Below, in pieces: positions 14,162 through 42,803 of a stretch of 64,000 nucleotides of DNA; the stretch's first letter is position 1, and each line of letters begins with the position of its first letter. The notes below the pieces were generated by a model. The model searched no databases, was not told where the DNA came from, and saw nothing but the letters and a program-made list of their open reading frames with translations. The stretch lies in the NCBI RefSeq assembly GCF_027579695.1, contig NC_083592.1, positions 29,702,961-29,766,960 on the forward strand. The letters run 5' to 3'. The position numbers were made by a program, and so were the translations under genes. The stretch is from Neoarius graeffei (Eukaryota; Chordata; Actinopteri; Siluriformes; Ariidae).

Positions 14162-14735
14162 TGTCATACCTGCGTGCCTTGGTGCATGCATCAGATAGAC
14201 TCTTGGGCACTCCGGACTGCCTGCGCACCAAGCGGAGTCTTGTGCACAGCGTAAACGACTCACACCTGCACAGGATTAAGGCACAAACAGCGCGCTGATA
14301 TAAAAACTGTGAAAACACATTTACTTTGCAAAGTATTGAGTTGCATTGCTGACACATTACTGAACCTTATTTCCTTGTTTGTTTTCCTGATCCTTGATTT
14401 CCTGTTTCTCGTCTTTGATTCTGCCGAGTCTACGATAGCCTATTTGTGCCTCGCTTGATCTATTGCCTGTTTCACTGTTTTACAATTTTGCCTGCCGTTC
14501 TGGATTGTTTACCTGTCTTCACTTTTTTAAATTTTATTTTATTAAGCTTCCACCTCAGATACAATAAATAAACATATAATAATTTTTTTTAAATGGTGGG
14601 GGTCACACAACAGAGCTAGGCTCCAATAACAGTGTGCCTATACAGTGTGCACTTGTATTAATAAACACACCTTCTGCACTTACATCCATCTCTCAACCAT
14701 GTCTGACAGAATACTTTGGACTCCTTGACATGCAC
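14162..14735 (+). mobile_element. LTR of a Sushi-like retrotransposon plus start of its interior
   Basis: The LTR runs from TGTCATACC (14162) to CTGACA (14703-14708). It has TATAAAAA at 14299-14306, a CAAAGTATT at 14329-14337 about 30 bases downstream, and AT-rich polyadenylation-type sequence. Immediately after the LTR is GAATACTTTG (14709-14718), which pairs with CAAAGTATT. The rest of the element is gone; an L2 LINE follows. LTR sequence resembles those at 31308-31772 and 42284-42750 (shared ACATTACxGARCCT and TTACATCCxxCT blocks). Confidence 0.75.
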
Positions 14736-15041
14736 ATTCTACGCACTTCCTGGTTCCCGAGTTGTTTGTGACAAGTCTTTTTTTCCACAAGTGTTGGTGT
14801 TAATTATTAATCTTTTTTTAATATTTTTTTCTACAAATAATTTTCCAGTATCCTCTTCATTTTTATTGTACTGTCACTTTCCTTTTTCCATTTTTTTCTC
14901 TCTCTTTTTTCAGAAAAACACAGAGACTGGAAGCTTTCTTTTTTTTCTCCTCCTGCATAAAGACCATAAGCGGAGGCCATCCACATCAGATCTGCTTTAA
15001 TATCAACAGATCTTCAATTAAGGTACGTGAATCTTTTCATC

Positions 15042-15947
15042 ATGGCACACCTTCAGCCTGTTCAGTGTGCTGAGTGCAGGATGTTTAGTCATTCTTCCTC
15101 TGTTGCTAGCGATAGCTTTATTTGTGATAAGTGCAGATTAGTTAGCTCTCTGACGGAGAAGATTATAGTGTTAGAAGCACGTATCCATGCTTTAGAGAAG
15201 GTCAATGAGAATGAGAACGGTGTAGTTTCTGTAGGGGAAAGTCTGGATGCCCGAGGTGGAGTTAGCAATCCCCCAACTCCGGCATTAGAGCCCTTACAGC
15301 GGGGCGAATGGGTGACGACTCAGCGGCATAAGCATAGAGCCAAAGCTACCACTGAGGCTCGCCCACGGGAGCACCACTCCTCTCCGCGTCACGTGTCAAA
15401 CAGGTTTGCTCTCCTTAGTGATGCAACCACTGAGAAGCCTGAAAGAGCTCTGGTTATAGGGGACTCTATCATACGGCATGTGAAATTAGCTCAGCCTTTA
15501 GGGGCACCAGCAGCTTTAGTCAGGTGTATACTGGGAGCCAGGGTGCCGGACATAGGAGGTAATCTTAGGGTCCTAGGCAAGCACAGGTTCTCAAAGATAG
15601 TTATCCATGCAGGAGCTAATGATATACGCCTTCGTCAGTCTGAGGTTACTAAGAGTAACTTTGTAGAGGTGTTTAAATTAGGGAAGGCAATGTCCGATGC
15701 TGTAGTATGCTCTGGCCCCATCCCAATGCGGCGTGGCAATGTAGCTTACAGCAGGTTATGGTCGCTGAACTGCTGGTTGTCCAGGTGGTGCTCTGAAAAC
15801 AGTGTGGGCTTTATAGATAATTGGGCTAATTTTGAGGGCACTGCTGGCCTGTTAGGGCGGGACCGTATCCATCCCACTCGGGAAGGTGCTGCTCTCATTT
15901 CCTGCAGCATAGGTCATAGTCTCAGAACAGGCCTAGTTAATTTCTGA
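15042..15947 (+). CDS. L2/CR1 LINE ORF1 with zinc finger and esterase domain, open
   Basis: About 300 residues. The start has a PHD-like cysteine pattern (QCAECRMFSHSS ... FICDKCRLV), then a short coiled coil (LTEKIIVLEARIHALEKV), a basic spacer, and an SGNH-type esterase: ALVIGDSIIRHV (GDS block), IVIHAGANDIRL (GAND block) and DRIHPTREGA (catalytic D..H). CR1/L2 ORF1 proteins with PHD and esterase modules are known; they bind the LINE RNA and the esterase role is unsettled. All catalytic residues appear kept and the frame has no break. I start at MAHLQPVQ (15042); the upstream ATG at 15027 is also in frame. Confidence 0.88.
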   Translation: MAHLQPVQCAECRMFSHSSSVASDSFICDKCRLVSSLTEKIIVLEARIHALEKVNENENGVVSVGESLDARGGVSNPPTPALEPLQRGEWVTTQRHKHRAKATTEARPREHHSSPRHVSNRFALLSDATTEKPERALVIGDSIIRHVKLAQPLGAPAALVRCILGARVPDIGGNLRVLGKHRFSKIVIHAGANDIRLRQSEVTKSNFVEVFKLGKAMSDAVVCSGPIPMRRGNVAYSRLWSLNCWLSRWCSENSVGFIDNWANFEGTAGLLGRDRIHPTREGAALISCSIGHSLRTGLVNF

Positions 15948-16043
15948 CAATCCAGAGCCAAGGCCAGGGAGCAGACGAACAGGCTAAACCAACTGTCCAC
16001 TAACTGCACAGAGTCGTCACTCAGGGTCCACTACATCGAGACT

Positions 16044-17030
16044 GTGTCTGTTCCCCGAGCTCAACAAAAAAGTAGAAATATTCAGAGAGTTTGTTCCAGT
16101 AACCTAATCAATATAAAATCAGATTATACTGACTGTACAGCAGCTGCCAGCACCTTTGATCTAAAGGTGGGGCTATTAAATATTAGATCTCTTACATCTA
16201 AAGCGCTAATGGTTAATGAACTCATTACTGATCAGGATTTTAATGTACTTTGTTTAACTGAAACATGGATTAAGCCAAATGAATATATAGCATTAAATGG
16301 AGCTAGTCCTCCTGGATACAGTTATATACACCAGCCTTGTCTAACTGGCAGAGGAGGAGGCATTGCGGTTATTTATAATGATTATCTAGTGTAACACAAA
16401 AACCTAGTTATAAATTTAATACATTTGAAGTTCTTCATACTAATATAATGTATGTAGCCTCAAAAAATAGGTCTACGCAGTTAATTCCGTTATTTATTAT
16501 TTACAGGCCCCCGGGGCTATATTCTGAGTTTCTTTCTGAATTTGCAGATTTTATCTCAGGTCTGGTTATTTCCTTAGACGAAGCTTTAGTTGTCGGAGAT
16601 TTTAATATTCACTTCGATAACCCAGAAGACCCTTTGAAAACAGCGTTTGTGTCTATTTTAGATTCAGTAGGGATTAATCAGAATGTCATAGGACCAACCC
16701 ATAATGATGGTCACACCCTCGATCTAAAACTAACATTCAGGTTAAACGTAGAAAATATAGTCATACTTCCACAGTCTGAAGTTATCTCAGATCATTATCT
16801 CATCTCATTCAAACTATGTCTGAGTAATAATATATGCACCTCACCACGCTACTGTATTAAATGTACATTCACGTCAACTACTGCACAGAGCTTTATAAAT
16901 GATCTCCCAGAGTTAACTTTGATTGGGTCACTGTCAGCCCCTGCAGAACTTGACCAGGCAACTGAATGCTTAGTCAACATAACGTCTTTTCTTCTCACTT
17001 TCCGTTACTGTAGTCAGTCTTTCATGTTTC
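16044..17030 (+). pseudogene. L2/CR1 LINE ORF2, endonuclease part only
   Basis: ORF2 begins around 16044 and shows KVGLLNIRSLTSKA, VLCLTETWI and GYSYIHQP, the APE N-terminal motifs, until 16394. A stop and frameshift at about 16395-16447 moves the frame, after which IIYRPPGLYSEFL, EALVVGDFNIHFD, GHTLDLKLT and VISDHYLISF give the remaining endonuclease motifs. Similarity ends near 17000 (TECLVNITSF); none of the RT motifs is present, so the copy cannot mobilise itself. The downstream tail of the frame to 17101 is unrelated sequence. Confidence 0.85.
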
Positions 17031-17189
17031 ATTCGCATGCTCACATCCTCCCCTGCTTGTACTCAGTGCAATATGTATACTGTTCCTACTTACAGTATTG
17101 AGGTGACATTGGGCATACCTAACAACCTGTGTTTTCTCTCTCTCTCTCTCTCTCTCTCTCCCCCCCCAAAATATGTCCGTCTGAGTTAC

Positions 17190-17752
17190 ATGTTGGTCCT
17201 GGGATCGAGATGCTGACCTCTTCTGCTCCTCGGACCTGCCTGATCCATCCTGGTGCCCTGTGTCTGGTTGGAGTCTCATCATATCACTCCTGTGGAGGAT
17301 GGCCCCATGTGGACAGTTGAAATTCACACCTGGAGGACGCTCTGGACTCTTATGGTAATGCTTTTATGGCTGAGGACTACAGCTGACTTGCTAACTTTAG
17401 GACTGCAGTTGTCATGAACAGTTTAGCACTCAAGTTTCCATCAATGAAGAGTTTATAACATCAGTGAAACTGACTTCATGTTAAAACTGTTAATGTTATA
17501 GTCATGTTGTCTGTTGTTGCCCAAATGAGGATGGGTTCCTTTTTGAGGCTGGTTCCTCTCGAGGTTTTTTCCTCATGTCGTCTGAGGGAGTTTTTCCTTG
17601 CCACCGCCACAGACTTGCTCATTGGGGATAGATTAGGGATAAAATTAGCTCATGTTTTAAGTCATTCAAATTCTGTAAAGCTGCCTTGCGACAATGCTTA
17701 TTGTTAAAAGCGCTATACAAATAAACTTGACTTGACCTGACTTGACATTCAC
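17190..17752 (+). other. L2 LINE 3' untranslated region
   Basis: Contains GATCCATCCTGGTGCCCT ... GAGGATGGCCCCAT, GGTTCCTCTCGAGGTTT, GAGGGAGTTTTTCCTTGCCAC and the terminal AAAGCGCTATACAAATAAA, all standard for this fish L2 group. The first block is a single copy of the unit that is repeated four times at 19907-20222. Confidence 0.85.
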
Positions 17753-17975
17753 CTGTTCATACATCATGTTCAGGAACAAGCTAATGTTAATGGGGTTAAA
17801 ACAGCCACCATCAAATGGTGCGGTTGGAGTCTTGGACTCGACTTGGCTCAATAGTGGACTCGACTTGGACTCGACTCAAATTTTTTTTAATGACCTAGAC
17901 TTGACTCAGACTTGAACACTGGGACTCGAGACTGGACTCGGATTCGAGGTTTAGTGACTCGACTACAACACTGGG

Positions 17976-19104
17976 TGAATGTCAAAGGAATTATGCCTGG
18001 GATTTACTTTGAGTAAACTAATTTGAATACTGTATAACACTTTCTCTCTCTCCATGTTGAAAATGTCTCTGAAATATCTCGTTTTAGTTTGATGAATGGC
18101 AATTCGGTCCACCTTAATACAAATACTGGAACTGTAAAAGAGTCCGATGAAATTTAGATCTTCTCTGATTGTTCTAAGATGGATTGAGGAGGATTTGGAA
18201 ATACAGCCCGTTAATTACAGCTATGGCAGGTTAACCCGTCCTCTGGAGGATTTTCGTCCTCGAGGTTTAAACGATTCCCTTGAATGTTCCAGTCAAAGAC
18301 CTGCTGTACACTTTACTTCTGAGCAAAATAGGACTTTTCCTTTCATATCTAATCACACAACAATGACTTCATCTCACTAAATTTAGATTAGAAAGAGTGC
18401 AAACATACTGTATCATAAAAATGTCAGTATTGATCTAGGCCTCTGGTATAAGGCCTATAAATCGCAACCTTGTGATTAACACTTGACTTGGAGAAAGTCA
18501 CTTTTCTCTCGGTAGTGAGAGTTGTTTTCGTGGCTGCTGACCTTTTTTTTTCTTTGCCACTTTGTCCAGGTTTTGTAGTGGAAAACGTGAGCAGTTTTCT
18601 CCTCTTCAGAATGAAGCTGTGTCTTCTTGATTGAAGTTTATATAGGAAGGTCAGTGGTTGCTGCCTCGGGGCCGTGGGATTCCTTCAGGTGCTATATATC
18701 AACCCAGAGCAATAAATGCCACTGGCTGTATTTCTCAGGACAAAGGCAGGTGTCTTCTCATCTCTGGTAAAGATGAATGTGTGGTTCATGGATAAGGTGA
18801 GTCTCAAAATCAATGAAAAAGGGGGAAAGATAGTAGAATGCCATACATAATATACATGTCTTACAAAGATGCTTTAAGATGTGTAGGATTTATGTTTCAC
18901 CTGAGAAGAGGCTCAGTGATGCAACCTAATAACTTCCTTAGTATTAACTCATCCCCTTTTGTCCAGATGTGCAAAAGCAAGTGCATATCTGCAATAAGAA
19001 TGATTTTATTATTTTTTAATTTTTTTATTTTTGTAAATGTCTGTATAGCACTTTTAAAGTTTTTAAATGATCACACCATGGGGTGTGCTGTTGTAAGAAA
19101 TTAA
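17976..19104. other. Unassigned 1.1 kb, with one weak exon candidate
   Basis: No recognised repeat. At 18739-18796 a 58-base open stretch lies between TTTCTCAG and GTGAGT; this is treated as a finding, not a gene. Confidence 0.4.
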
Positions 19105-19240
19105 TCAAATCAATTTATTTGTATAGCATTGTTAACAATAGACATTGTCATAAAGCAGCTTTACAGAAAAAATAAAGATTTCAAACATATGAACTAACAA
19201 TTTATCCCTAATAAATTTATCCTTAATAGATTTATTTATC

Positions 19241-19511
19241 ACAGTCTCCCCGTGTCCGTGTGGGTTTCCTCTGGGTGCTCCGGTTTCCCCAACAGTCCAA
19301 AGACATGCAGGTTAGGCTAATTGTTGGCTCTAAATTGACCGTAGGTGTGAATGTGAGTGTGAATGGTTGTCTGTGTCTATGTGTCAGCCCTGTGATGACT
19401 TGGCGACTTGTCCAGGGTGTACCCCGCCTTTCGCCCATAGTCGGCTGGAATAGGCTCCAGCTTGCCTGCGACCCTGTAGAACAGGATAAAGCGGCTAGAG
19501 ATAATGAGATG
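19241..19511 (+). mobile_element. V-SINE copy B, 5'-truncated
   Basis: Begins inside the central domain (ACAGTCTCCCCGTGTCC) and runs to the GATAATGAGATG tail. Flanked by 13-bp duplications AGATTTATTTATC at 19228-19240 and 19512-19524. The tRNA head is missing, so it is dead on arrival. Confidence 0.93.
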
Positions 19512-19906
19512 AGATTTATTTATCCCTAATGAGCAAGCCTGTGGCAATGGTGGCAAAGAAAAACTCCCTCAGACAACATGAAGAAGGTCCTCGATAGGAA
19601 CCAGACTCAAAAGGGAACCCATCCTCATTTGGGTAATAACAGATAGTGTGATTATAAATAACTCACTCCTATAAGTGTGTCCTATATGGTTAAAAAGTAC
19701 AGCTCTATAACCAGGAAATTCATTATAGTTTTAGCATGAAGTCTATTTTGTTGACGTTATCAACTGTTCATTGATGGAGACTTGAGTGCAAAACTGTTCA
19801 TGACAACTGCAGTCCTAAAGTTTTCATGGCAATTGTAGCCCTCAGCCATCACAGCAAAACTGTAAGTGTCCAGAGCCATCTTCCAAGTGTATTTTTAGAG
19901 TGACCA

Positions 19907-20222
19907 TATGGGGCCATCCTCACTGTGCAAAGTGATGAGAACTCCAGCTAGAAGTAGGGCATCAGGATGGACCAGGGGCTGTACTTATGGGGCCACCCTC
20001 ACATTGTAAAGTGATGGGAACTCCAGCTAGAAGTAGGCCCTCAGAATGGACCAGGGACTGTAAATATGGGGCCATCCTCACTGTGCGAAGTGATGAGAAC
20101 TCCAGCTAGAAGTAGGGCATCAGGATGGACCAGGGGCTGTACTTATGGGGCCATCCTCGCAGTGTGAAGTGATGAGAACTCCAGCAAGAAGTAGGGCATC
20201 GGGATGGATCAGGCAGGTCCGA
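19907..20222. repeat. 4 x 79-bp tandem array inside L2 3' UTR
   Basis: Units start TATGGGGCCA at 19907, 19986, 20065 and 20144, exactly 79 bases apart, each ending near CAGGGRCTGTA. Units 1 and 3 are closest to each other in their start, units 2 and 4 differ by a few bases. Confidence 0.95.
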
Positions 20223-20281
20223 AGAGCACGAGAGGCGAGCATCAATGGTGTCTCCAGATCAACGTGTAACTAAACATAGAT

Positions 20282-20286
<5 letters not shown>

Positions 20287-20322
<36 letters not shown>
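20287..20322. repeat. (GA)n microsatellite
   Basis: About 15 GA units next to the end of the L2 fragment. Confidence 0.9.
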
Positions 20323-23100
20323 TTTACGTATGCCCGTTGTCACCTAATGGTTAAGAATAATGTACATTGTGTGCTGAGTGCAAGCAGGGACTCCAGAATC
20401 ACTGCTGTTACAATATCAAACACCTTACAGCTATTTGCCCAACATTCTACACTTAATTAAAATTAATTAATTAACATACCTTTTTTATCCATTTACTGTT
20501 TAGCTACATTTAATGTTGTAGAATGTCCTTGAGAGATTTAGTTCCTGTTATCACTTGCATTATAGCAGCTAATAAACAGCCGTAACTTTATCAGCCCCTC
20601 TAAATTCTCTCTCCTGAAGTTAATAAGACTAAAAAGCCATTATCTTGTTACTGAGAAACTGAAAAGCACAAAGTCCTCTGTCCTAAAGATATTCCCATGT
20701 TGAAAAGTTTAAAGGAACAGCTTTACCTCCGACCATTACAATGTAATGCTCCTGCTGTTATAGAAAATAAACATTCAACCCATTCTGGCCAATCAGAATC
20801 TCGAATTCAGTAGTGCTGTGGTATAATGGCTGTTATGATTATTATGAAATATGATATCATGGGCCAATTTTGTCTAAATCATATGATTATAAGTTCACGA
20901 CAGTTCTTCAGTGCAGTATAATTCAGACAATAAAGATGATTATGCAGAATGTTTAAAGGCTCAACCTCCTGTGTCCAGGTTTTAAATTTGGACTGCATTT
21001 TTCAGACTGAGCATACTGCTTAAGACAGCTCTTTTGTTCTCGTCAAGATGTCTGGCAAAGCAATTTCCCCTTCGCTTTCATGCAGGGATGTTAGGATGAC
21101 CCCAGGACGACGTTCCTGGTCTTCTCATAAGTACCAGAAGCAGTGAAGGGATCTGGTGTGCTGATCTGCTTCCCCAGGCTTTTGTCCTCGATTTCACCCA
21201 GACGAAATGGCTCGGAAATTAGATTCATGTCACAGACATTGCATTTTAAAGAAGCCTGTCTGCGACAGACCATCCCAGAGTGCAATGCTTCATTATTCAC
21301 TAGCCAATGAGCTCTCCAGGACCTTCTCACTGTGCATGTGTGTGTGTATGTGTGTGTGTGCTGCAGGAAACAGATGAATTATTCACACTTTTAAGCATTG
21401 ACACACCAACTCAGGAGTAGTGCTTGACTCAGGGTGCTCTAATTTCTCTCGATCTCTTTTGTGCAAGGAACGGTCTTTAGACATTTTGAGATACTTTGTC
21501 ATTTCAATTTTATACCAAAGTCAGAGGCATGTTTTATTCTAGTTCCAGACTCTCTCGTGTTATTAAAATTCTCTCCAAGAAAGCCGACAGATTGAGAGCC
21601 AAAAGCTCTCAACGAAACAGATTTGGAAATGGATTAGCATGAAGTTGGAGCTTTAAAAAAAAATCCGACTTTGCTTTAATTAAGCTCCATTTAAACCTGA
21701 TGCGTTCCACTCAGATTTTTATTTTTTGTTAAGGAATCGTTGGGTTTATTCAGCCATGGGACCAGAGTGACTACAACTGGAATCCATCTGCATGCATTTC
21801 CGAAAGGCGTCTCCCAGAAGCAGAGCTCAAACACAGGCTCAGCATTAACAAAGAGGATGATTCCATGTGATCTTTCCCAGCTTTGAGTCGAAGCTTCCGT
21901 TCATGACTTTTGCCTCTATCAGTGCTGTTCTACTGAAGCACAACCACCTAAATTAAACCTGTGAGTGGTCAACACCTGGGTAGCACCTCCCCATTGCACT
22001 AATTGGTCCATGGAGTATAACATGAGCAGCACTTACTGCCCTTGGGGGTACAGCAGCCAATAAAAAGGCTATGTGCAGATGTCAAAGATAGCACTTTATC
22101 TCTCCCTTTCTACACCACTGGCATCAATTACCCTCAGCTAACAGGGTGTGAATTTAGATGGCATCAGCCTTGAAGTCAGCCTTTCACTGGAAAAAAAAAA
22201 TACTGCATCAAAATCAGGACAGATTCTATGAGATCTGAAAGAATTCAGAATGTACAGAAAACTGCATAAGGCAAGTTTATCAATTTCTTGTACAACTGAA
22301 ATGGACCTAGGATTGAACCCAACGGACAAATCTGCACAATGTGTGAACAAGCTGTTCTGATGTTGCTGAGTTGATTCACATGCTGGGAAGACATTTGCAT
22401 ATCTATTAAACAAACGGCTCAGTAAATCGCCATAATCCTTTCTCACACCCACGCCAAATGGCACCATGAGGGTTGCTCAAGCAAAATATTTGCTGAAGCT
22501 GCTTGGGTAGAAAGTCAAATCAGCACAGTTTGGGCCGTTTCTCCAAGTCGTTTCTCTTGGGGAAGGCGAGGATTTTGGAAAGGGTGGAGGCTGCGTTCAT
22601 CCATCTGTGGCCCTACATAACCCAGTCCAAGTTTCCAGAAAGCAGCTCATCACTTGTTCCATATACAGCACACCAGACGGTATGAACTGTTATATGAAAT
22701 ACTACCATATTTGAAACACATTGTCAAAAGGTCAATGACCATCAGGTAGAATGATGATTACTTCACAACTCATATTTCATTCTTTAAACAAAGCCTGATT
22801 TATTCATGGTTTTGACTTTAACAGTACTGTTCATGCTGTGAGGTCATGTTTAACGCTACATATGTTCACAGTGGTTGGATGCATGAGTTGGGGGGGAAAC
22901 GACTGTCCACATGTGGTTGGTGTTGGTTGTTCAGCTTGATGTCTTGTCATGTCTGAATCCCTATATGTTTTCTTTGAACAGACTAAACAAATCCTCCACC
23001 ATAAATTTACTACAATATGGATATACTTTTTGAAAATCATAGTCGGAGGGGAAAAAATTACATTTATATTTACTACAATCCTGTTACTATCCACTGTAAA
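20323..23100. other. 2.8 kb, mostly unassigned
   Basis: No recognised gene. Around 20515-20840 the sequence (TTATAGCAGCTAATAAA, AACAGCTTTACCTCYGACCATT, CCAATCAGAATC) resembles 34985-35110, so an old dispersed repeat is likely. The rest shows no inverted ends or domains. A short (TG)n lies at 21338-21361. Confidence 0.45.
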
Positions 23101-23102
23101 TA

Positions 23103-24704
23103 CAACCCCGATTCCAAAAAAGTTGGGACAAAGTACAAATTGTAAATAAAAACAGAATGCAATGATGTGGAAGTTTCAAAATTCCATATTTTATTCAGAA
23201 TAGAACATAGATGACATATCAAATGTTTAAACTGAGAAAATGTATCATTTAAAGAGAAAAATTAGGTGATTTTAAATTTTATGACAACAACACATCTCAA
23301 AAAAGTTGGGACAAGGCCATGTTTACCACTGTGAGACATCCCCTTTTCTCTTTCCAACAGTCTGTAAACGTCTGGGGACTGAGACAAGTTGCTCAAGTTT
23401 AGGGATAGGAATGTTAACCCATTCTTGTCTAATGTAGGATTCTAGTTGCTCAACTGTCTTAGGTCTTTTTTGTCATATCTTCCATTTTATGATGCGCCAA
23501 ATGTTTTCTATGGGTGAAAAATCTGGACTGCAGGCTGGCCAGTTCAGTACCCGGACCCTTCTTCTATGCAGCCATGATGCTGTAATTGATGCAGTATGTA
23601 GTTTGGCATTGTCATGTTGGAAAATGCAAGGTCTTCCCTGAAAGAGACGTCGTCTGGATGGGAGCATATGTTGCTCTAGAACCTGGATATACCTTTCAGC
23701 ATTGATGGTGTCTTTCCAGATGTGTAAGCTGCCCATGCCACACGCACTAATGCGACCCCATACCATCAGAGATGCAGGCTTCTGAACTGAGCGCTGATAA
23801 CAACTCGGGTCGTCCTTCTCCTCTTTAGTCCGAATGACACGGCGTCCCTGATTTCCATAAAGAACTTCAAATTTTGATTCGTCTGACCACAGAACAGTTT
23901 TCCACTTTGCCACAGTCCATTTTAAATGAGCCTTGGCCCAGAGAAGACGTCTGCGCTTCTGGATCATGTTTAGATACGGCTTCTTCTTTGAACTATAGAG
24001 TTTTAGCTGGCAATGGCGGATGGCACGGTGAATTGTGTTCACAGATGATGTTCTCTGGAAATATTCCTGAGCCCATTTTGTGATTTCCAATACAGAAGCA
24101 TGCCTGTATGTGATGCAGTGCCGTCTAAGGGCCCGAAGATCACGGGCACCCAGTATGGTTTTCCGGCCTTGACCCTTACGCACAGAGATTCTTCCAGATT
24201 CTCTGAATCTTTTGATGATATTATGCACTGTAGATGATGATATGTTCAAACTCTTTGCAATTTTACACTGTCGAACTCCTTTCTGATATTGCTCCACTAT
24301 TTGTCGGTGCAGAATTAGGGGGATTGGTGATCCTCTTCCCATCTTTACTTCTGAGAGCCGCTGCCACTCCAAGATGCTCTTTTTATACCCAGTCATGTTA
24401 ATGACCTATTGCCATTTGACCTAATGAGTTGCAATTTGGTCCTCCAGCTTTTCCTTTCTTGTACCTTTAACTTTTCCAGCCTCTTATTGCCCCTGTCCCA
24501 ACTTTTTAGAGATGTGTTGCTGTCATGAAATTTCAAATGAGCCAATATTTGGCATGAAATTTCAAAATGTCTCACTTTCGACATTTGATATGTTGTCTGT
24601 GTTCTATTGTGAATACAATATCAGTTTTTGAGATTTGTAAATTATTGCATTTCATTTTTATTTACAATTTGTACTTTGTCCCAACTTTTTTGGAATTGGG
24701 GTTG
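23103..24704 (-). mobile_element. Tc1-like transposon, minus strand, complete
   Basis: Ends CAACCCCGATTCCAAAAAAG (23103) and the inverted CAACCCCAATTCCAAAAAAG (24685-24704), flanked by TA at 23101-23102 and 24705-24706. The inverted repeats extend about 60 bases (GTACAAATTGTAAATAAAAA on both sides). The motif AAAAAGTTGGGACA recurs inside each end (about 23297 and 24490), giving the IR/DR arrangement of two transposase sites per end. Length 1.6 kb. Confidence 0.95.
23323..24396 (-). pseudogene. Tc1 transposase with one premature stop
   Basis: Minus-strand frame starting [11 protein letters not shown]. The DNA-binding part shows [20 protein letters not shown] and a GRKTIL linker; the catalytic core has [22 protein letters not shown] and [11 protein letters not shown] with 34 residues between the second D and E. 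The only defect I see is an in-frame TGA at 23473-23475, about 50 codons before the natural end at 23323; beyond it the frame continues with RPKTVEQLESYIRQEW and ends GDVSQW. The stop lies just after the last catalytic residue, so the truncated protein of 307 residues keeps the whole DDE triad but lacks the C-terminal helices. Confidence 0.92.
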
Positions 24705-24844
24705 TACTTAACCTGTATACTCAGTTAAGAAGGCAAGGGTTAACCAAAGAGTACAAAGTTGTCTTCATTTTGGTGATGTTCACATAAAAGGGTCACATTA
24801 AATTAGTAATTCAGCATTTGGGCTGCCCTTGTATCTCCAAGTAA

Positions 24845-26222: not shown

Positions 26223-26261
26223 TCAGTCAGCAAGCAAGCCCCGCTATAAACAGAGCAATGA

Positions 26262-26494
26262 ACATAGCGTGTCACTTCCTTCTCTGGATGGAGTCTTACC
26301 AAATGACGATTGAAGTTCGAGGTTGTCCCCGTTGTCTCCTCGATAGTTCTTCTACACATGGAACACGTAGCAGCGCATTTTTTTCCCACTGCACGAGAAG
26401 TCTGTATAAGCAAAGCGGACAATCCTAGGGGCTTCTCTCCAGGCATTTTAGCACCGTTAACATTAGTTTGTTCCTGAACATGACGTATGAACAT
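26262..26494 (-). pseudogene. hAT transposase N-terminus with BED zinc finger
   Basis: Minus-strand frame with KMPGEKPLGLSALLIQTSRA then KKCAATCSMCRRTIEETTGT and TSNFNRHLVRLHPEKE. The CxxC followed by an NFNRHLxRLH block is a BED finger, the DNA-binding module of hAT transposases and ZBED proteins. Only this first exon is present; the dimerisation and catalytic parts are absent, so the element is non-autonomous. After HPEKE the frame runs into the inserted MITE. Confidence 0.7.
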
Positions 26495-26567
26495 ACACGT
26501 ATGTGCATTCTCTTGCAGGAAATTAGTGCAAAAATTAATGTAAATATAAATATCTTATGCTAAATTA

Positions 26568-26968
26568 TTAGAAAGAAAGGAAAGAAAGAAAGCACAACTT
26601 TATTCATCACACACTTGTGAAATTTCCTTTCTGCATTTAACCCATCTGAAGCAGTGAGCACACACATGAGCAATGAGCACACACACCTACCCAGAGGTAG
26701 GTGGGCAGCCATGCTAACAGCACCCAGGGAGCAGTTGGGAGTTAGGTGCCTCGCTCAAAGGCACCTCAGCCCAAGGCTGTCCCATATTAACTTAACCTGC
26801 ATGTCTTTGGACTGTGGGGGAAACCGGAGCACCCGGAGGAAACCCACGCAGACGTGGGGAGAACATGTAAACTCCACACAGAAAGGCCCTCGCCGGCCAC
26901 TGGGTTCGAACCTAGAACCTTCTTGCTGTGAGGCAACCGTGCTAACCACTACACCACCGTGCCGCCCA
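26568..26968 (-). mobile_element. Chimeric SINE: V-SINE head joined to family-3 tail
   Basis: On the minus strand it starts as a V-SINE (GGCGGCACGGTGGTGTAGTG, B box GGTTCGAACC, central block to CAAAGACATGCAGGTTAAG at about 26785) and then switches to the family-3 SINE body (GAGGTGCC, GAGCGAGGCACCTAACTCCC, TTCAGATGGGTTAAATGCAG) ending in a CTTTCTTTCTTTCC tail. Confidence 0.85.
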
Positions 26969-30659: not shown

Positions 30660-30663
30660 ACAG

Positions 30664-31006: not shown

Positions 31007-31074
<68 letters not shown>
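31003..31074. repeat. (CA)n(TA)n then poly-T
   Basis: CA, TA and T runs in succession; prone to assembly error. Confidence 0.95.
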
Positions 31075-31077
<3 letters not shown>

Positions 31078-31307: not shown

Positions 31308-31772
31308 TGTCAGGTACGCAAGCTAAGTGGATGTAAGTGTAGAAGTAATCAATTTAATAATAACAGTGCTGTTTATATACAAAGTGCACAAACACACACA
31401 AAGGCAAACAGCCCAAGACAGCAGGCTAAATCCAAATCGTAAAACAGGCAAAAGGGTTGGGCAAGGTGCAAACAGGATATCAGAGGCAAATCATGAACAG
31501 GAACAAGAAACAGGCACAGGAAATCAAGAACAGGAACGAGAAACAGGCACAGGAAATCAAGAACACGGGTAGAAAGGCTCGGTAATGCGTACTGATGTAT
31601 CATAATACTTCGCACCAATCATGCATCAGCACAGTCCTTAAATAGGTGCACATAGCTCTTTAATAGAGTTCAGGTGCGCATTGTTAATGGCGCGTGTGCT
31701 GTAGTCCGCTTGACATGTGCACAGCCTGGGGTGCGCCTTCAGGTGCACGCGCCACAACACACAGGACTGACA
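31308..31772 (-). repeat. 3' LTR of the minus-strand LTR element
   Basis: 465 bases, TGTCAG...CTGACA, with a TATTTAAG box and AATAAA-type end on the minus strand. It differs from the 5' LTR by about 20 bases around 31500-31560 (an extra repeat of GGAAATCAAGAACAGGAACG-like units). Confidence 0.9.
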
Positions 31773-31789
31773 GAACCCCCTCCCAAAGA

Positions 31790-33590
31790 GTTCTCTCCGG
31801 GAGCGAAAATCCATCATATTTGGCTCCGGTGGGGATTCGGGTTCAGGCTTAGGACAAGACTTGGACTCCAGACTAGGAGTGTGCTTGAGTTCAGGACTTG
31901 ACTTGGGCTCTGGATTGGAATCATACTCAGAGTCAGGACTTGACTTGGGTCTTGGACTTGGTTTGGATCCAGGACTGAAGGTGGACTCAAGCTCTGGGCT
32001 GGATTTGAGCTCTGGAGATAACTTGAGATTTGGGCTGTACTCTGGCTCAAGCTCAGGAGATGACTCAGGCTGGGGTTCTGGAACTGGCTTGGACACAGGG
32101 CTGGGCTTGAGCTCTGGAAATGACTTGAGCTCTGGACTTGACTTGGGCTTTGGACTGGACTTGAGCTCTGGGGATGACTCGAGTTCTGGGCTGGACTTGA
32201 GCTCTGGAACTGACTCGGAACTTGATTGTAGTTCAAACTCAAGATGTGACTTGGACTCAGGACTTGGCTCTAGTGCGAAATCTGGATGGGACTCAGGCAT
32301 GGGCTCGAGCTCTGTCAGTGCCTTGCTATGGTCCTGGCCGGGCGGCAGGACGATGACGATGTCTTCATAGCCGAGTGGCAGTGGGACGACGATGCTTTCA
32401 TAACCAGCTGAGGCAGAGGTTCTGAAACAGGCTCAGGTTCTGGCACTGGCCTTGACTCTGGCATTGGCACTGAAGCTGGAGCAGGTGCCGACTCTGGCGT
32501 AGGTTCTGATGCTCTAGCTGACCTTGGCACTGGCTCTGGAGTAGGCACTGATGCAGGTCTGACGCTGGCTCTGGCATGGGAGCTGACTCCAACACTGGTG
32601 CTGGCATAGGTTCTGGAGTGGACACTGGCACAGGCTCTGATGCTGGCTCTGGCACTGGAACTGACTCCGACACTGGCACTGGTTCTGGAGTAGACACTGG
32701 TGCTGACTCTGACTCTGACTTTAGCACTGGTTCAGGAGCAGACACTGGTGCTGACTCTGGCACTGGTTCTGGAGCAAATGCTGGTGCTGGCACTGGAACA
32801 GATGCTGGCGCTGGAACAGGAACAGACACTGGCACAGGAACAGACACTGCCACTGGAACTGGAACAGATGCTGCTGCTGGCTCAGGTTCAGGCATGGGTT
32901 CTGATACAGACATTGGTTCAGGCATAGATTCAGGTGCTGGTTCTTGCTGAGAAACCAGCTCTGGAGAGACAGCCTCTAGGAGGGGCTCAGGAACAAGAGC
33001 CTCCTCTGCTGTCTCTACTTTGGCCACTGGAGGAAGCTCTGGAGCAATGGCCTCCTTCGCTGCATCAGCCACTGGAGGGAGCTCTGGAGTGATGGCCTCC
33101 TCTGCTGCGTCAGCCACTGGAGGGAGCTCTGGAGCGATGGCCTCCTCTGCTGCATCAGCCACTGGAGGGAGCTCTGGAGCGACGGCCTCCTCTGCTGCGT
33201 TGGCCACTGGAGGGATCGCCAAAAAATTCCATGGGGTTCCTCCTTTACTAAAGATTCAAAAATGAACTTGAGCATGGCAAAAAAAGTCTGTGAGCTTCGA
33301 AGGCATGGGTGCTCGACTCAATTCAGGTAATCCACCCATCTGCGTGCTTGTCCAGCAATAAATGTTAGGATAAAGCCTACCCAGATGGGTTCTGGTGGCT
33401 TGGGCTCTTGGAGGTCCTCATAGAAGAAATCACATTGAAGACTGAATCCCATAGGATGATATATTCTGTAGTAGGGTGCTGGGGGACTCCAGTCAGACTT
33501 CAGCCGGAAATACGAGGCGAGGGGCTGAGACAGGGAAACCTGGAAGCAACATGGAATTGCGTACTGAAAAAACTTCTGTTACATCCATTG
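31790..33590 (-). pseudogene. Degenerate gag-like region with Pro/Glu/Ser repeats
   Basis: From the ATG at about 33583 (MDVTEVFS...) the minus strand has a gag-like stretch: EPIWVGFILTFIAG and QARRWVDYLN, with stops between. Then follows a repetitive section read in two phases: ELPPVADAAEEAI repeats (33020-33222), VPVPAPASVPVP-type repeats (32400-32950) and SSPELKSSPELE-type repeats (31860-32240). Near the end FRSRRELFGRGFC precedes the purine tract. The last two blocks are open over 274 and 220 codons. No known enzyme domain. The same RELFG ending occurs in the element at 42284-44705. Confidence 0.6.
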
Positions 33591-33605
33591 TATGGCGAAG
33601 TATTC

Positions 33606-34051
33606 TGTCAGGTACGTAAGGTAGGCGGATGTAAGTGCAGAAGTAATCAGTTTAATAACAACAGTGAAGTTTATATACAAAGTGCACAAACACACACAAA
33701 GGCAAACAGTCCAAGATGGCAGGCTAAATCTAAATCATAAAACAGGCAAAAGGGTCGGGCGAGGCGCAAACAGGATATCAGAGGCAAATCGAGAACAGGA
33801 ATGAGAAACAGGCACAGGAATCAGGAAACAGGAAATCAAGAACACGGGTAGAAAGGCTCGGTAATGCGTACTGACGTATCGTAATACTTCGCACCGATCA
33901 TGCATCAGCACAGTCCTTAAATAGGTGCACATAGCTCTTTAATAGAATTCAGGTGCGCGTTGTTAATGGTGCGCGCGCTGGAGTCCACTCGACGTGTGTG
34001 CAGCCCAGGGCACGCCTTTAGGTGCACACACCACAGCATGCAGGACTGATA
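33606..34051 (-). repeat. 5' LTR of the minus-strand LTR element
   Basis: 446 bases. On the minus strand CTATTTAAGG (complement of 33915-33924) is followed about 31 bases later by GCGAAGTATT (complement of 33883-33892), which is complementary to the primer site at 33594-33605. Confidence 0.9.
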
Positions 34052-34168
34052 AAATGACTTTGTCGGATGTTTTGTATCATTGTAGATTATAACGTTTTTA
34101 TTTATCGAATTTGCAAAAAATAAAAATATGTTCTGTTTCTCAAAGTCCAGTGAATGTGGATAGAATAA

Positions 34169-34237
34169 AAGTTATTCCACTCAATCTCGTTGTACATGGC
34201 TTATAGCCCATGTACAACTCGATTTCATGGAATAACT
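34169..34237. repeat. Hairpin palindrome GTTATTCCA...TGGAATAAC
   Basis: Arms GTTATTCCA with GTTGTACATGGGC-type inner stem fold back on CCCATGTACAAC and TGGAATAAC with a tiny loop at about 34203. Half of a related sequence is at 20-60. Confidence 0.85.
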
Positions 34238-34250
34238 GTTAAATATACAG

Positions 34251-34253
<3 letters not shown>

Positions 34254-34301
<48 letters not shown>
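34254..34301. repeat. (TG)n microsatellite
   Basis: About 23 TG units after TACAGTACTG. Confidence 0.97.
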
Positions 34302-36145
<1,844 letters not shown>

Positions 36146-36237
36146 CCTAAGCGGTATATAAAGGGTACAAATAAGTACCTTAGACGGTACTGCCCCACTG
36201 ACAAGCCACTGTACCCCTAAATGTACAATAATTAAAT

Positions 36238-36347
36238 AATATTGGCTGGCTTTTTTTTCGTGGTATATCAGATATATTCCATTCAGCTAGCATGATATTG
36301 AACGAGTCAAAGACTCTGATATACCATGAAAAAAGCCAGCCAATATT
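36238..36347. repeat. Inverted repeat / hairpin MITE
   Basis: ATTGGCTGGCTTTTTT plus CGTGGTATATCAGA faces its complement TCTGATATACCATG plus AAAAAAGCCAGCCAAT across about 50 bases, followed by short ATT repeats. A related GGCTGGCTTTTTTGC lies at 45525-45540. Confidence 0.85.
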
Positions 36348-36722
36348 ATTATTAATATTATTATTATACATACACATTCCTTTCAGGTGTTCAATGCGTC
36401 TTTCTCTTTCAAAATTCTCTCAAAATCTTCCGTATTTAACGAAGCAAGCCTGGCGGCCATGTTTGTTTACAAATGGTCACAGTCACTCACTTGCTAGTAC
36501 GGACGTTTTACGTCTCCGACATGTGACATCATGTTGTCTTGACAACCATGCAATATCGTAAACCATATCCAATGCTCATTCCCCATTGGGTAGAGTGACG
36601 TAATACACGTAGGATAAGCGATATGCTGACAATATTGCATGCTATCCAACCAAGTGAATGGAACCTGCTAGAAGGGAATAGAACACGTGTTTTATTCCAT
36701 TGAAAAATTTTCTGAGTGTAGG

Positions 36723-37623
36723 ACTATAATCTAAATACATTACATGAAACAAACCTGATAAACATGAGTTTTTTTCCAATATAATCTCTGTTTATCTCAT
36801 CTGTATAGCGTACATGTGATTACCACAAACAAGGATTTCATTTCTATGTACAACAGAAACTCAAAACTTACTTGTGTATTCAAAACTTGGTTCTAAAAAG
36901 TCTAAAGGCATTTGATAAATTCTGGCAAAAACACGTTCGCAAAACCCACAAGTATTTCACTCTTTCAAACACTGGAACAATAACGTATAAAAGTAATTCC
37001 ACTGATTTAAGCTTTCCATAGTAATCTTGCAGCATCAGGCAGAAACTCACACACTTCCACGTTTTACTTAGAGCTACATTGGTAACACATAACCACAAAC
37101 TCTTCCCTCTGGAAAAAGTCGTCATGTCTCTAAACGCTCAATTTACAAAAACATTTGAGCGAAGAATTCAGAAGACTGGTGAAGAAGGTTTGTAGGGAAT
37201 AAAACACTTGGGCGTGTGCTGTTATGGAAAAATAATGAATGACATGGAGGTGTGATGCGGCCTGACATGAAGTAAAGTTACACTCTTACCACCCCAAAGC
37301 TGAATATTTTCCACTTCTTCTACATGATTTTATTCTCTTATTCCACAGCATGATTCCAAGGATTAAATTTTTTTTTAATTAATGAACACACATTTTTTCC
37401 ATTTATTGTCACTGTGGAATGTCTGCACAACAAGTTTGCCATCTATAAACAGTTGTTCCATCACCAGCTTCTCTTTTTCTTCCCTCTCTTATGAACATCT
37501 CCATCCTGAAGACTTTCCCATGGCAGGAAACCAAAAGCAACAAATTTAACTAACAAAATGCTGACAACGGATACTCTGTAAAAAGGGTCAATAATCATAC
37601 TTTTTTGTTTATTTTAGGATTAA
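36723..37623. other. 0.9 kb unassigned
   Basis: AT-rich sequence without supported features. Confidence 0.4.
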
Positions 37624-37637
37624 ATAATCTGAAGCAT

Positions 37638-38007
37638 GGTGGCACGGTGGTGTAGTGGTTAGCACTGTTGCCTCATGGCAAGAAGGTTCTGGGTTCGAGC
37701 CCAGTGGCCAAATAAGGGCCTTTCTGTGTGGAGTTTGTATGTTCTCCCTGTGTCTGCATAGGTTTCCTCCGGGTGCTCCGGTTTCCCCCACAAGTCCAAA
37801 GACATGCAAGTTAGGCTAAATGGTGGCTCTAAATTGACCATGAGTGTGAATGGTTGTTTATGTCTCTGTGCCAGCCCTGCGATAACCTGGCAACTTGTCC
37901 AGGGTGTACCCTGCCTCTCGCCCATAGTCAGCTGGGATAGGCTCCAGCTTGCCCGCGACCCTGTACTGGATAAGTAGCTACAGATAATGGATGGATAGGA
38001 TAGATGG
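37638..38007 (+). mobile_element. V-SINE copy E, full length
   Basis: Complete from GGTGGCACGGTGGTGTAGTG to a GGATGGATAGGATAGATGG tail, flanked by a 14-bp duplication ATAATCTGAAGCAT (37624-37637, 38008-38021). Its 3' end reads GGATAAGTAGCTACAGATAA, and several substitutions show it is older than copies D, G, I and J. Confidence 0.95.
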
Positions 38008-38021
38008 ATAATCTGAAGCAT

Positions 38022-39200
38022 CTCTTGTACAAGTCCCTCTGTAGATCATTACTATAGAAACAATAATATCTTGGAAGAGGTGCATTATTATAGATATACA
38101 GTAGATCGAGGTAGTTAAATGAAAAAGTATGGTTTTCCTTTAGCCATTTCGATTCCTGTTAGAGATCATGCAAATAATTTCTCGAAAAGACTTTAAAATT
38201 GTTACGCTCCTTAAACCAGAAACGTTCTAAATGGTGTCTGGTGAATGAAGTAATAGAACTGAAAGTGAGGACTATGTTACTATATCCACAATAAAGCACT
38301 TCACTGCCAGTGTCTTTCATCATCATGAAGGGAAAAAAAGAGATCTGCTCCATGCCATGTATGATATATATCATCCAGCACGTCAGCATGTCACAGAGGG
38401 GTCATTTAAGCAGTTTAAGAATGATTCGAAGGAGCTAATCAGGATCTTGCCGGCGCTACATGACTGGTGACCTTCCAATTAAATTAAAGAAGGCGAATCT
38501 ATGTCTTTCAATTAATTTGAAGGATGTCCCAGAACAGGTTTTCTCACTGTTCCTCAGTATCTTAATCTGGCTCAGACAGGCAGAAGCAGCCAATCAGACC
38601 AGCAAACGGCTCCTAATGCTAACTCCAATGACTCCAATGCTCGAGATGATATCTAAAATAGCTCTATGAAACATGATGAGGCCGCAGTGTCAGAGGATTC
38701 CATCCACGCATTATAAATCCTGACAAGCCCAGTGCAGCATATCTGCAGATATAATACTCCCATAATGACACTCTCACCTTGACTCATTCTTTACTCATGA
38801 CAGGGTAATACAAGGCTCCATATGAAGCTGAAAATGCGGCACATCACAGCAAAATTTGCTTCATAGGAAAAAATAGATGATAGCCTAGTGATAGACATAA
38901 ACACAGCTTTTCCAGTGTGTAAATGATGGATAGAGAAACAGAATGGCTTGTAGGTTTGTTTTGTAATTTGCAGTCTGTGTTTAGTGAAAGTAAACTCAGT
39001 GAAAATAATGTAGCTACAGCTTTCGCTAAAGGATTGTTCTGTCTTTATATAAATGTAAAAACCAGGCCAACAATAACAGCTGTCTGGATGTAAACAAATA
39101 TAGAAGTACACCAATACACATCTCTGAAACAGCATCTCCAGACACCATCCTAATAATACAACAGTAATACAACATTGAGCCTGCACACACACAACCGCAC
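38022..39200. other. 1.2 kb unassigned, possible conserved non-coding sequence
   Basis: No repeat recognised. 38430-38540 has CAATTAAATTAAAG and CAATTAATTTGAAGG, homeodomain-type sites in a non-coding setting. Confidence 0.4.
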
Positions 39201-39209
39201 GGGAGCTGG

Positions 39210-40160
39210 GGTTTTTTACCTCGTCCGGGACGTAGTCCACCAGGGGGCGAGGGACTGTTTTCGATGGGGTTTCTTTGTTTCTCTGTTTTTTTGTTAACAA
39301 CATTACGGGAAAACGGCTGGACCAATCTTCATGAAACTTTCAGGATAGATGGGCATTGGTCTCAAATAGAACTTCCAACATTTTAAGGGCCATCTGGTCA
39401 AGGTCACAAAAAAGGTCTAAATCATTTTTTTCCATGATATCTTCCTTCATATTTATCATATTTATTTCAAACCAATTCTAAAACGTTCATCTTTCAATTC
39501 TACTTCCATTGATATGCTACATAATGGGGTATCTTTCATAGTTTTCTTTCAACCTTTCATTTGTTTGTTTGTTTGTGTGTCTGTCTGTCTGTCTGTTAAC
39601 AAGCTAGCGTCTAGACAGTTGCACCAATTGACTTCAAATTTTCAGGGTAGGTGGGCAATGGTCCGTAGATTACCTGATTAAATTTTGAGGGTAATTGGGT
39701 CAAAGTGAAGGTCAAGGCCACTGGAACTGTCAACCTTTCGGTCAAAATAACATATTTTCCATTATAAATCAAACAGTTGCCGATAGACAGATGTTTACTA
39801 TTATGAGCATATAAGAACTCCCATATGGCCTTTCATTTGGCACCATGATCTTTGACCTTGAGTAACCTTGAAAGGTCAAACTCAAGGTCATGGATTTTCA
39901 GAGGGCTGTAACTTGAAAACAGTTGATGGTAGACAGATATTTACCATTATCAACTTATAGGAAGTGCCATATGGGCTTTCATTTGGCACCATGACCTTTG
40001 ACCTCAAATGACATTGAAATGTCAAATTCAAGGTCATGGATTTTCATAGGACTATAACCTGACAGCTGATGATTGAGAAATATTACCATTATCAACATAC
40101 AGGTATAAAATAAGTGCTGCTGGGCGAGGTTTGTTTTGCTTGGCAACACTTGTTCTTGTT
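39210..40160. repeat. Dispersed repeat with tandem AGGTCA half-sites
   Basis: A block opening near GGGGCGAGGGACTG and ending near GGGCGAGGTTTG contains three degenerate tandem segments of about 136 bases (for example CATATGGCCTTTCATTTGG at 39833 and CATATGGGCTTTCATTTGG at 39968). At least eight AGGTCA/TGACCT half-sites occur, including the exact DR1 TGACCTTTGACCT at 39992-40004. (TGTC)n runs at 39575-39597. The repeat class is unknown to me; similar CTGTCTGTCTGT-containing ends occur at 12310 and 63095. Confidence 0.6.
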
Positions 40161-40164
40161 TTGC

Positions 40165-41730
40165 TTTGTTTTTTTGAGATGGATGTGAACTTTACTTGAA
40201 AAGCTGCACCAAACAAAACACACCTAGGTATTATTCAGGCTTATTTGACCTTGACAACCATCTCTGTTTTTTTCCTCCCCCATCATATGAGCAAAAGATC
40301 AATACAACTCAAATGAAATAAAAATCATCTTGGCTCAAGGAGGTCTCCTTGAAATGCTCAGGTATGTCAAAAGTATTTAATCGGGATGAAAATGAAGCAA
40401 ATCTGTTCCAGGGATTTAATGAAGCAAAATTGGTTGCCACGCTGCACTGCTTGCTTTGTTCTCAGCTTCAGCTCTGTGCTCTAGTCAGGATCAGTCACAA
40501 AAAAAAAAAAAAAAATTATGGATTGGTGTGATTGTCAATTGAGATATGAGAAAAGAGTGATGTGGTGAAGAGCAGGCTCAAAGCTTCCCTAAAATCACTT
40601 TTTGGTTCAGTGAGAAACAACAAAGAGGATGGCACTTCTGAGGATGCGAGGCAGCTCTGACCCTTTGTACGAGATGTTACCATACAAAAGAAGCCTGTCT
40701 CTTGTTCACTATGCTCCTCTCAGACAAGGCTGGATGAACAGAGATCATAATGATGCAATGTGATTTGGGGGAATGGGGAAAAAAAAACCATCAGCCAAAA
40801 AAAAAAAACATCAGCCAAAAAAAAAAAAAAAATCATAAAATTCTCTCATATAAAAAGGTCACTTGAACAAGGTCAGGACAGGCAATAAATGTAGCTGACA
40901 GATGCCCTAAAAAAGTGAAGGTGCCATCATTAATTTGAACCCAGATCCTCAGTGCTCTTTTAATTGTGTCTGTACACTGACAGGATGACAGATCCAGTGT
41001 GAGCCAGATGCTCGTGTCTGGGAATATGACAGGAAGCAGGGGGATGCACAAAATCTGGAGAGAAAGAGAGCAAGAGAGAGAGATAGAGAGAGAGAGACGG
41101 GAGTACAGCATGCTGATCAAACCATCTCACCATCTAGCAACTGACATTAGTTCCAAAATTTCAAAATTCATTCCTTCGCTGATTAAGAAATGCTCTGCTT
41201 CCCTCACTGTCTAATTTACACTTTAGTGCATGAAGAGATGAGTAGCAGCGTCTATCTCCAGTATGCAACACTGGCAGCGATGCACGTGTGAGTGAGCTTG
41301 TGTATCACACGCTCAGAGTTTTACAGTTGAAATCCTGAAGCCCTTCAGGTAAAAGCTGCTGATCCTTTCATGAGCAAGCTGCAGGCAGAAGCAAGCAAAA
41401 TTGTGGGTTTTGAATAATTTTGAAAATAATCACTCAAAGAATGAAGAATGATGTTCAGTCTTTTGATTTTCTGTGGCTCTAATCTGGGGCTTTGGTGAAG
41501 CACAGTAAGGGTTTTATCACCATTACTAAACCTAATCCTGATACAAATTAAATACAGGCAATAATTTTTAATCTAGACTTGTGGCTTGGACTCGGGTTCA
41601 TTTTGTGACATATCTGGCAACTTCTCTGCAAAAACAGAACCATAAAACTACTCCTGAAAAGGCATAATGACATTAGAATGAGATCATGAACTGTGTTGAT
41701 TAGCCAAGCTAATACATTTTTTAAAAGTCT
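40165..41730. other. 1.6 kb unassigned with simple repeats
   Basis: Poly-A runs at 40499-40514 and 40785-40833 and a (GA)n tract at 41058-41098; otherwise nothing recognised. Confidence 0.4.
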
Positions 41731-42008
41731 CTCCCGTCCCAGTACTAACCAGGCCCTGAAGGCACATCGGGTGGCGCTGAACTCTGTTTCTACAACCCTC
41801 GGCCTCTCATCTATTACACTGCCAGGGTGACAGTGGGAGCTGGTCCTCTGGTAACCATGTGAGTTTGACTCCCTACTCACATCTGTATTGTAGCGTACCT
41901 TGCCAGATGGTACCATTTTTATTATGGTCTTTGGTATGACCCGACCGCAAGTAGAACTCACGATCTCCTGGTCAAGAGGCAGACATGCTAACCACTAGGC
42001 CAATTCAC
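41731..42008 (-). mobile_element. tRNA-derived SINE, family 2 (minus)
   Basis: Same family as 13028-13380: on the minus strand GTTAGCATGTCTGCCTCTTG head, GAGTTCTACTTGCGG B-box region and the AGACCATAATAAAAATGGTA body. Confidence 0.8.
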
Positions 42009-42283
42009 AGTATACATTTAAAGATGCTGCCTGCAAAGTTGAATTCTGAGTAAAATGTTCAATGTCTATGGCTGTTGGAATTTCAAGATGTTGCGATGCT
42101 GCACACATCATGTACTCTGTGTCACTGTTTTTTCGAGATAAAATGCGTCCCACATTTTACGATTCTGAAAATTACCAAAGTAAGCAAGCAGCAATATCAT
42201 GTGACCACCGTGGGGCGGCTTTGAACTACTTTTAACCAAAACAAGTTGACGTGGACGAACATGGCGGACTCCGCTCTCCTGCT

Positions 42284-42750
42284 TGTCACACCTGCATGCA
42301 TTGGCGTGTGCAACAGACTTTCTCTCATGCACGCTCTGGACAGCAGGTGCAATGAACTGACTCTCACACATCCTCTGAACAGCGTGCGCCATTAATGACA
42401 CAAGCCTGCATTGGATTAAGGTGCAATCAGTGCACTTATATAAGGATGCTGAAGATTCATTCAGATTGCGAAGTATTGTGTTGTGAATGACACATTACCG
42501 AGCCTTGTTATTGTGCTGTTTTCCTAGTTTCCTGATTCCTGTTCCCTTTTTTGGGGGGGGATTCTGCTTTTGTCTGTACCTTGGATAGTCTGTCTGTACC
42601 TTGCTCAACCCATTGCTTGTTTACTGTTCATGATTTCTGACTGCCGTATTGGACCGTATACCTGATCATTGCTTTTATAATAAATTCTTCTGCAAATACA
42701 TCTGACTCTTCCCAACCCGTTTATTGACAGAATAGTTTGCCTAGCTGACA
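42284..42750 (+). repeat. 5' LTR
   Basis: TATATAAG at 42437-42444, GCGAAGTATT at 42468-42477 (31 bases after the TATA start), ATAATAAA near 42677. Confidence 0.88.
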
Positions 42751-42803
42751 GAATACTTCACCTGAGTGATAGTGTGCATCACTTACCGTCTTACCATCAC
42801 AAC

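Follow-up and report, generated by a model that had tools for sequence, protein, structure and literature searches.

According to the available portions of two reports, the RNA of the fission yeast long terminal repeat (LTR) retrotransposons Tf1 and Tj1 has a 5' end complementary to a site directly past the 5' LTR (PMC4600332, PMC10085805), and the second of them calls this self-priming arrangement common to the Tf1/Sushi group (PMC10085805). A motif for the 3' end of Sushi LTRs, CNTNACA, has been published (PMC3601003, in the part available), and self-priming has been predicted from sequence for the plant Tcn1 and TAR lineages (PMC6317226, likewise in part). In the portions of the literature surveyed here, self-priming outside yeast has so far rested on sequence predictions of this kind. 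Butler et al. (2001), as cited in PMC10085805, PMC6317226 and PMC4600332, are said to deserve the credit for self-priming in the vertebrate Sushi, or V-clade, group. Here we analyze 64,000 nucleotides (nt) of the genome of the fish Neoarius graeffei (contig NC_083592.1, forward-strand positions 29,702,961 to 29,766,960). This whole stretch is referred to as the window, and coordinates are counted from its first letter. Two of its LTR elements, at 33 and 42 kb, are compared with other loci of the assembly (2.34 Gb, 38 contigs). The family of these elements (F1) and four further families of the same genome (F2-F5) very probably prime their own reverse transcription in the Tf1/Sushi manner.

F1-F5 resemble Tf1 and Tj1 in that the predicted RNA start is complementary to a post-LTR site and in having no TGG-type site. 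They differ from them in host and in sequence, and Tf1 priming is experimentally proven and involves two flanking duplexes that were undetected in F1-F5. The likeness to vertebrate Sushi elements lies in the DUF4939 gag, found in F2-F5 and in an additional family, F6, and in LTR 3' ends of the Sushi type, whereas F1 lacks a recognizable gag. With the plant Tcn1 and TAR lineages, which live in other hosts and are known by prediction only, F1-F5 share a self-priming predicted from sequence. Our literature search returned no paper joining self-priming, primer binding site, retrotransposon and covariation.

Predicted primers and primer-binding sites of F1-F5

The 33-kb F1 element is a non-autonomous element of 2.7 kb on the minus strand (31308..34051; 5' LTR 34051-33606, 3' LTR 31772-31308) flanked by duplications (CATTT, minus-strand letters, at 34056-34052 and 31307-31303), with an LTR identity of 86% over the aligned part. 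Its 5' LTR contains a TATA-like box, TATTTAA (33917..33923, minus strand), and 31 nt past the first T of this box begins GCGAAGTATT (33883..33892), the predicted RNA start and self-primer. The LTR terminates in TGACA at 33606, and one base beyond this end lies AATACTTCGC (33595..33604), the predicted primer-binding site (PBS). The 42-kb type, F1b, is likewise non-autonomous (42284..44705, plus strand, 2.4 kb; 5' LTR 42284-42750, 3' LTR 44220-44705), with flanks CTGCT and CTGCC that are alike in 4 of 5 bases and an LTR identity of 83%. Here a TATATAA box (42437-42443) is followed by the predicted self-primer GAAGTATT (42470..42477), and the predicted primer site AATACTTC (42752-42759) comes after the LTR-end TGACA at 42750. 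These boxes, the motifs about 30 nt downstream and their complements past the LTR ends had been pointed out in the initial annotation of the window, and in both copies they stand where it placed them.

The 42-kb LTR end is doubled (42725..42759): TGACA-GAATAGTTTG is followed by TGACA-GAATACTTC, and of these two sites the second matches the RNA start along 8 nt and the first along 4 nt. It is only suggestive that in this type the TGACA-plus-site unit was duplicated, leaving the older unit within the LTR, which would fit a border that follows whichever site is used. The same doubled unit is also listed for the F1 loci L003, L005 and L008, and the 3' LTR at 44 kb (44655-44705) has yet another end form that includes leader-like sequence.

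Both F1 elements are short and decayed, their interior consisting of a leader open reading frame (ORF) and a long coding-like repeat rich in Pro, Glu and Ser. In some copies these repeats (31.9-33.2 kb, minus; 43.2-44.2 kb, plus) have uninterrupted reading frames of up to 300 codons. When pieces of the leader ORF were searched in Pfam, nothing rose over the cut-off, and F1, which may still carry a degenerate gag, is therefore not classed as Sushi. The label "Sushi-like" given to the window's LTRs thus finds its gag evidence in other families of the genome, and the 33/42-kb family itself is without a Pfam match over the cut-off in the pieces searched. By its anatomy, F1 is nevertheless predicted to work like F2-F5. 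Among the 30 F1 loci collected, conservation could be followed in 29 copies: the core AAGTATT of the R (repeat) region is 99% conserved against an LTR mean of 90% (97th percentile of 7-mers), and the PBS core AATACTT is 97% conserved (83rd percentile).

Out of 8,805 candidates from a first look, a profile search with DUF4939 scored 150, and every one of the 150 matches listed lay over the cut-off. The upstream regions of 28 of these loci were inspected (8, then 20 chosen for differing match ranges), so that the loci were selected by their gag match. A match of at least 8 nt between the predicted RNA start and the post-LTR site was present in 17 of the 28. The following primer/site pairs lie upstream of a DUF4939 gag: ACGGAGTCTTT / AAAGACTCCGT in F2, GCTGAGTT / AACTCAGC in F3, CTCTGACCT / AGGTCAGAG in F4 and CTCTGATCGY / RCGATCAGAG in F5. 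The four families have differing sequences at both sites, yet the match is perfect over 8-11 nt in each. In all of F1-F5 an ATG on the gag side follows within a few dozen bases downstream of the site. The LTR starts of F2, F4 and F5 were placed where homology between separate insertions begins, at most 3 nt from TGTTA or TGTCA. The LTR 3' ends of the 33-kb copy and of F2-F5 fit CNTNACA, and the 5' motif TGTYANR fits F2, F4 and the short form of F5 and fails at its last base in the long form of F5 and in F1. By gag and LTR 3' ends alone, F2-F5 fit Sushi elements as predicted from sequence.

The two LTR forms of F5 (L081 and L085 versus L082 and L083) differ in length by about 150 bp and have U3 (unique 3' region) starts TGTTAGAG and TGTCAGC, which suggests an exchange of U3 between elements. 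In F2 the U5 (unique 5' region) of L073 and L093 has a tRNA-like stretch right before the LTR end, scoring 19.5 bits in L093 against an Rfam tRNA threshold of 29, and F3 (L087) has a similar GGGTTCAAACCCC at its U5 end. Rfam searches on three loci gave matches below threshold only, ARAGORN predicted no tRNA genes in the window or in L069-L076, and the F2 U5 end folded no better than its shuffles (z -1.2).

The position of the match was examined by comparing 18-nt windows taken across the LTR with the 16 nt beyond its end and recording the longest complementary run. In all nine tests (F1, F1b, F1c, which is a further LTR within L076, two of F2, F3, F4 and two of F5) the longest run, 7-11 nt, fell 26-44 nt past the box, and none of the 331-512 other windows per LTR equaled it. 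The 33-kb copy has a run of 10 nt against a longest of 4 elsewhere in its LTR (0 of 393 windows as long). The 42-kb copy has 8 nt against 6 (0 of 389), which holds only with the LTR end set at the second TGACA, the run being just 4 nt with the end at the first. The first motif starts 30 or 31 nt past the first T of the box throughout F1-F5, and pairing begins at +33 and +34 in F1b and F1c, whose first letters stay unpaired. The offset of the site past the LTR end is 1 nt in F1 and F2, 4 nt in F3, and 2 nt in F4 and F5. When the primers of any two families are aligned on their 3' ends, 8-10 positions can be compared and 3-9 of these are different, with an equal number of differences between the sites.

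Paired change within family F5

Among the F5 loci found first, some ended the primer in C opposite a PBS G and others in T opposite A. Pattern searches for F5 gave 4 matches of the short-LTR form and 19 of the long-LTR form. The latter fell at 18 places, and as one of these was an unrelated match due to chance, 21 copies remained. One of the 21, with a disrupted PBS, was set aside and the 20 intact copies were compared. The long-form search required exact letters at the eight pairs toward the primer 5' end and left the last two free. The last primer pair was C:G in 14 copies, T:A in 5 and T:G in 1, with no mismatch, and the association between the two sides is significant (Fisher p=0.0004, or 0.007 when the four copies that had prompted the test are left out). 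There is no CpG on either side of this pair. The last-but-one pair, which belongs to a CpG, is mismatched in 3 of the 20 copies, and the other letter of this CpG shows one mismatch and one wobble, both in the short form. In a tree of the LTR body, from which both motifs were excluded, T:A occurs in two places, and well-supported forks set one T:A copy, L130, within a group of C:G copies. The clustering of labels on this tree is due to near-copies.

The 14-kb LTR, CpG positions and other elements of the window

The initial annotation had put a third LTR, at 14 kb, at the center of its argument, proposing that both partners of the pair had changed there in a compensatory manner (G to A and C to T). 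In this copy a TATAAAA box (14299-14305), the motif CAAAGTATT about 30 nt on (14329-14337) and its complement AATACTTTG (14710-14718) are indeed present on the plus strand. Both motifs lie inside a solo LTR (14162..14730, plus strand), and the supposed primer site, 12-20 nt ahead of the last base of the LTR, is thus not a post-LTR site. The LTR end was derived from a duplication of AAGAG at both ends, which places it at the second TGACA (14730). Both ends were found in 28 of the 30 family copies sampled (L039-L068), with AAGAG exact on both sides in 15, one base off in 11 and four off in 2, the window's own copy being one of these two exceptions.

The 30 copies examined have, besides the LTR, the DNA on either side in common, and the LTR is therefore part of another dispersed repeat, together with which it appears to have been multiplied. 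In the window the left part of this host repeat is at 13904..14161 (plus strand) and the right part at 17745-17974, the two being split by a LINE-like (long interspersed nuclear element) element at about 14740-17744. An empty site, where a stretch of the host repeat lacks the LTR and shows AAGAG just once (26514-26510), is found at 26446..26570 on the minus strand. A pattern with both contested positions free gave 1,807 genome matches and none in the reversed control. Because of the flanks common to the 30 copies examined, these were not counted as independent support, and a single insertion that spread with its host repeat appears to account for them. The 14-kb copy itself, a dead, decayed solo LTR, has no role in self-priming. 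The LINE-like element adjoining it has an ORF for a GDSL-type esterase (Pfam), and one family member, L057, contains two LTR copies about 656 bp apart.

That the 14-kb copy bears a double change which preserved pairing is very improbable. Compared with the 33-kb copy, the two letters do show corresponding differences, and R CA is somewhat more commonly accompanied by PBS TG than other R states are. The changed letters are, however, the two CpGs of the pair, both changes are CpG transitions, and they are found separately in sister copies. The 14-kb family (30 loci) combines R CA with PBS CA in 5 loci, with PBS CG in 3 and with PBS TG in 1, the window copy, and it combines R CG with PBS TG in 2. 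In the 33-kb type (24 loci), PBS TG occurs in 1 of 6 loci with R CA. A larger F1 sample was drawn with a pattern leaving both dinucleotides free, which gave 75 genome matches, and R letters were obtained for 54 of them. PBS states came from two further searches, the rest being assumed CG, and 5'-LTR status was not checked per match. In this sample PBS TG was present in 6 of 13 copies with R CA against 12 of 41 with other R (one-sided p=0.21), and PBS CA in 3 of 13 with R TG against 13 of 41. The compensatory reading of the 14-kb copy was accordingly rejected in favor of CpG decay in a captured solo LTR. In F2, L092 has matching changes on both sides at the CpG of its pair, and L088 has a mismatch there. 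The 14-kb copy sounds a caution in that a solo LTR multiplied within another repeat can imitate compensatory change through CpG decay.

The gypsy-type LTR element at 53605..58523 on the minus strand, which we take to be Gmr1-like, served as a control. It possesses the TGG primer site noticed earlier (58212-58199), no comparable R match, a SCAN-domain gag, an integrase ahead of the reverse transcriptase (RT)/RNase H, and LTRs about 95-97% alike in matched blocks. Though it is from the same genome and also gypsy-type, it differs from F1-F5 in its TGG site, in an R match of 5 nt that is at chance level, being reached by 5% of windows, and in its integrase preceding RT. Elsewhere in the window, an open ORF of 307 codons (23473-24396, minus strand) presumably resembles a Tc1/mariner transposase.

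Probable self-priming and its alternatives

In any LTR element the LTR 3' border is where minus-strand DNA starts. In each of the five sequence versions a duplex in which the predicted RNA start forms the second strand ends at this border. We infer a scheme in which the RNA would start about 30 nt past the TATA-like box, and its first 8-11 nt would pair with the site 1-4 nt beyond the LTR end. On the model of Tf1, the RNase H of the element would then cut this 5' piece free, and the 3' end of the freed piece would start minus-strand DNA, thereby fixing the LTR 3' border. For self-priming as such, the other Sushi-gag families of the genome provide firmer support than could be drawn from the window.

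Several observations weigh against this scheme. The 11 gag loci of the 28 that gave no match are L069 (6 nt only), L071 and L074 among the first eight, and L077, L080, L086, L089, L090, L091, L094 and L096 among the next twenty; as far as visible, they mostly lack the LTR start or are decayed. In six of them (L080, L086, L089, L090, L094 and L096) the site side is of the F2 type, and the fetched stretch contains no R match of at least 8 nt. L091 has 8- and 9-nt runs at +27 and +26 of AT-rich stretches, which were taken for chance because no LTR is recognizable there. F6, represented by L069, has a 6-nt match equaled by 5% of windows, which is too little for it to be counted. F4 and F5 have TACTTAA boxes that a first scan with the usual TATA forms had missed and that were accepted post hoc. 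Flanking duplexes of the Tf1 type did not rise above shuffles (nine sequences, 18 duplexes; p values of 0.06-0.95 apart from a minimum of 0.023), and a search for a second duplex in F1 copies turned up a single match of 9 nt, in L003, without any general pattern. Finally, the covariation that the initial annotation had expected across genome copies of the window's family is not clear at the F1 CpG positions in the 54 of 75 matches described above, an absence that would be expected if most changes arose after insertion.

A host tRNA, whether an internal or a half-tRNA fragment, might instead be the primer, the match to the RNA start being incidental. Half-tRNA priming is known in some copia-type elements, as far as the available part of the source goes (PMC6317226), and the sub-threshold tRNA-like stretch in the U5 of F2 could be read in this light. 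Such priming gives no reason for the site to track R, however, and the sites of F1-F5 differ mutually, yet each fits its own RNA start. Considering only the TGG start of tRNA 3'-end type sites, none of them begins so, as had been noted for the window's copies. We regard tRNA priming as unlikely, and similarly so the idea that the motifs pair for another use, such as an RNA hairpin in packaging, translation or transcription control, with something else as the primer. The latter idea draws on the fact that the data show the pairing itself, from which priming use is inferred. Yet the paired stretch coincides with the predicted RNA start and reaches to within 1-4 nt of the LTR border, the point from which minus-strand DNA has to be made, and a hairpin would not have to occupy both positions. 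Complementarity arising by chance and chosen by eye is scarcely credible: the motifs are short and were picked by eye, and both F6 and the control element show chance runs of 5-6 nt, but in all nine tests of F1-F5 the longest run of the LTR fell at the predicted place, in five sequence versions. Chance is thus contradicted for F1-F5, though not for F6.

Self-priming therefore remains the reading we favor, and with it F1-F5 add members to a known mechanism, that of Tf1 and the one proposed for Sushi. The presence of five primer-pair versions in one genome, at a fixed distance from the box and with joint change, means that the case rests on covariation, and it makes the question of how the primer and its site are kept matched one that counting can answer. 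In Tf1 the primer is kept and copied. We tentatively raise the somewhat doubtful possibility that every cycle renews the primer-binding site from the primer: the RNA 5' piece would remain attached to the minus strand and serve as the template for the site of the new element. If this is true, a single step would carry a mutation of the RNA start over to the site, and no intermediate would be unpaired. It would also explain the free drift of the primer pair between families and the occurrence of both C:G and T:A in two places of the F5 tree. Elements primed by a tRNA, by contrast, remain tied to it.

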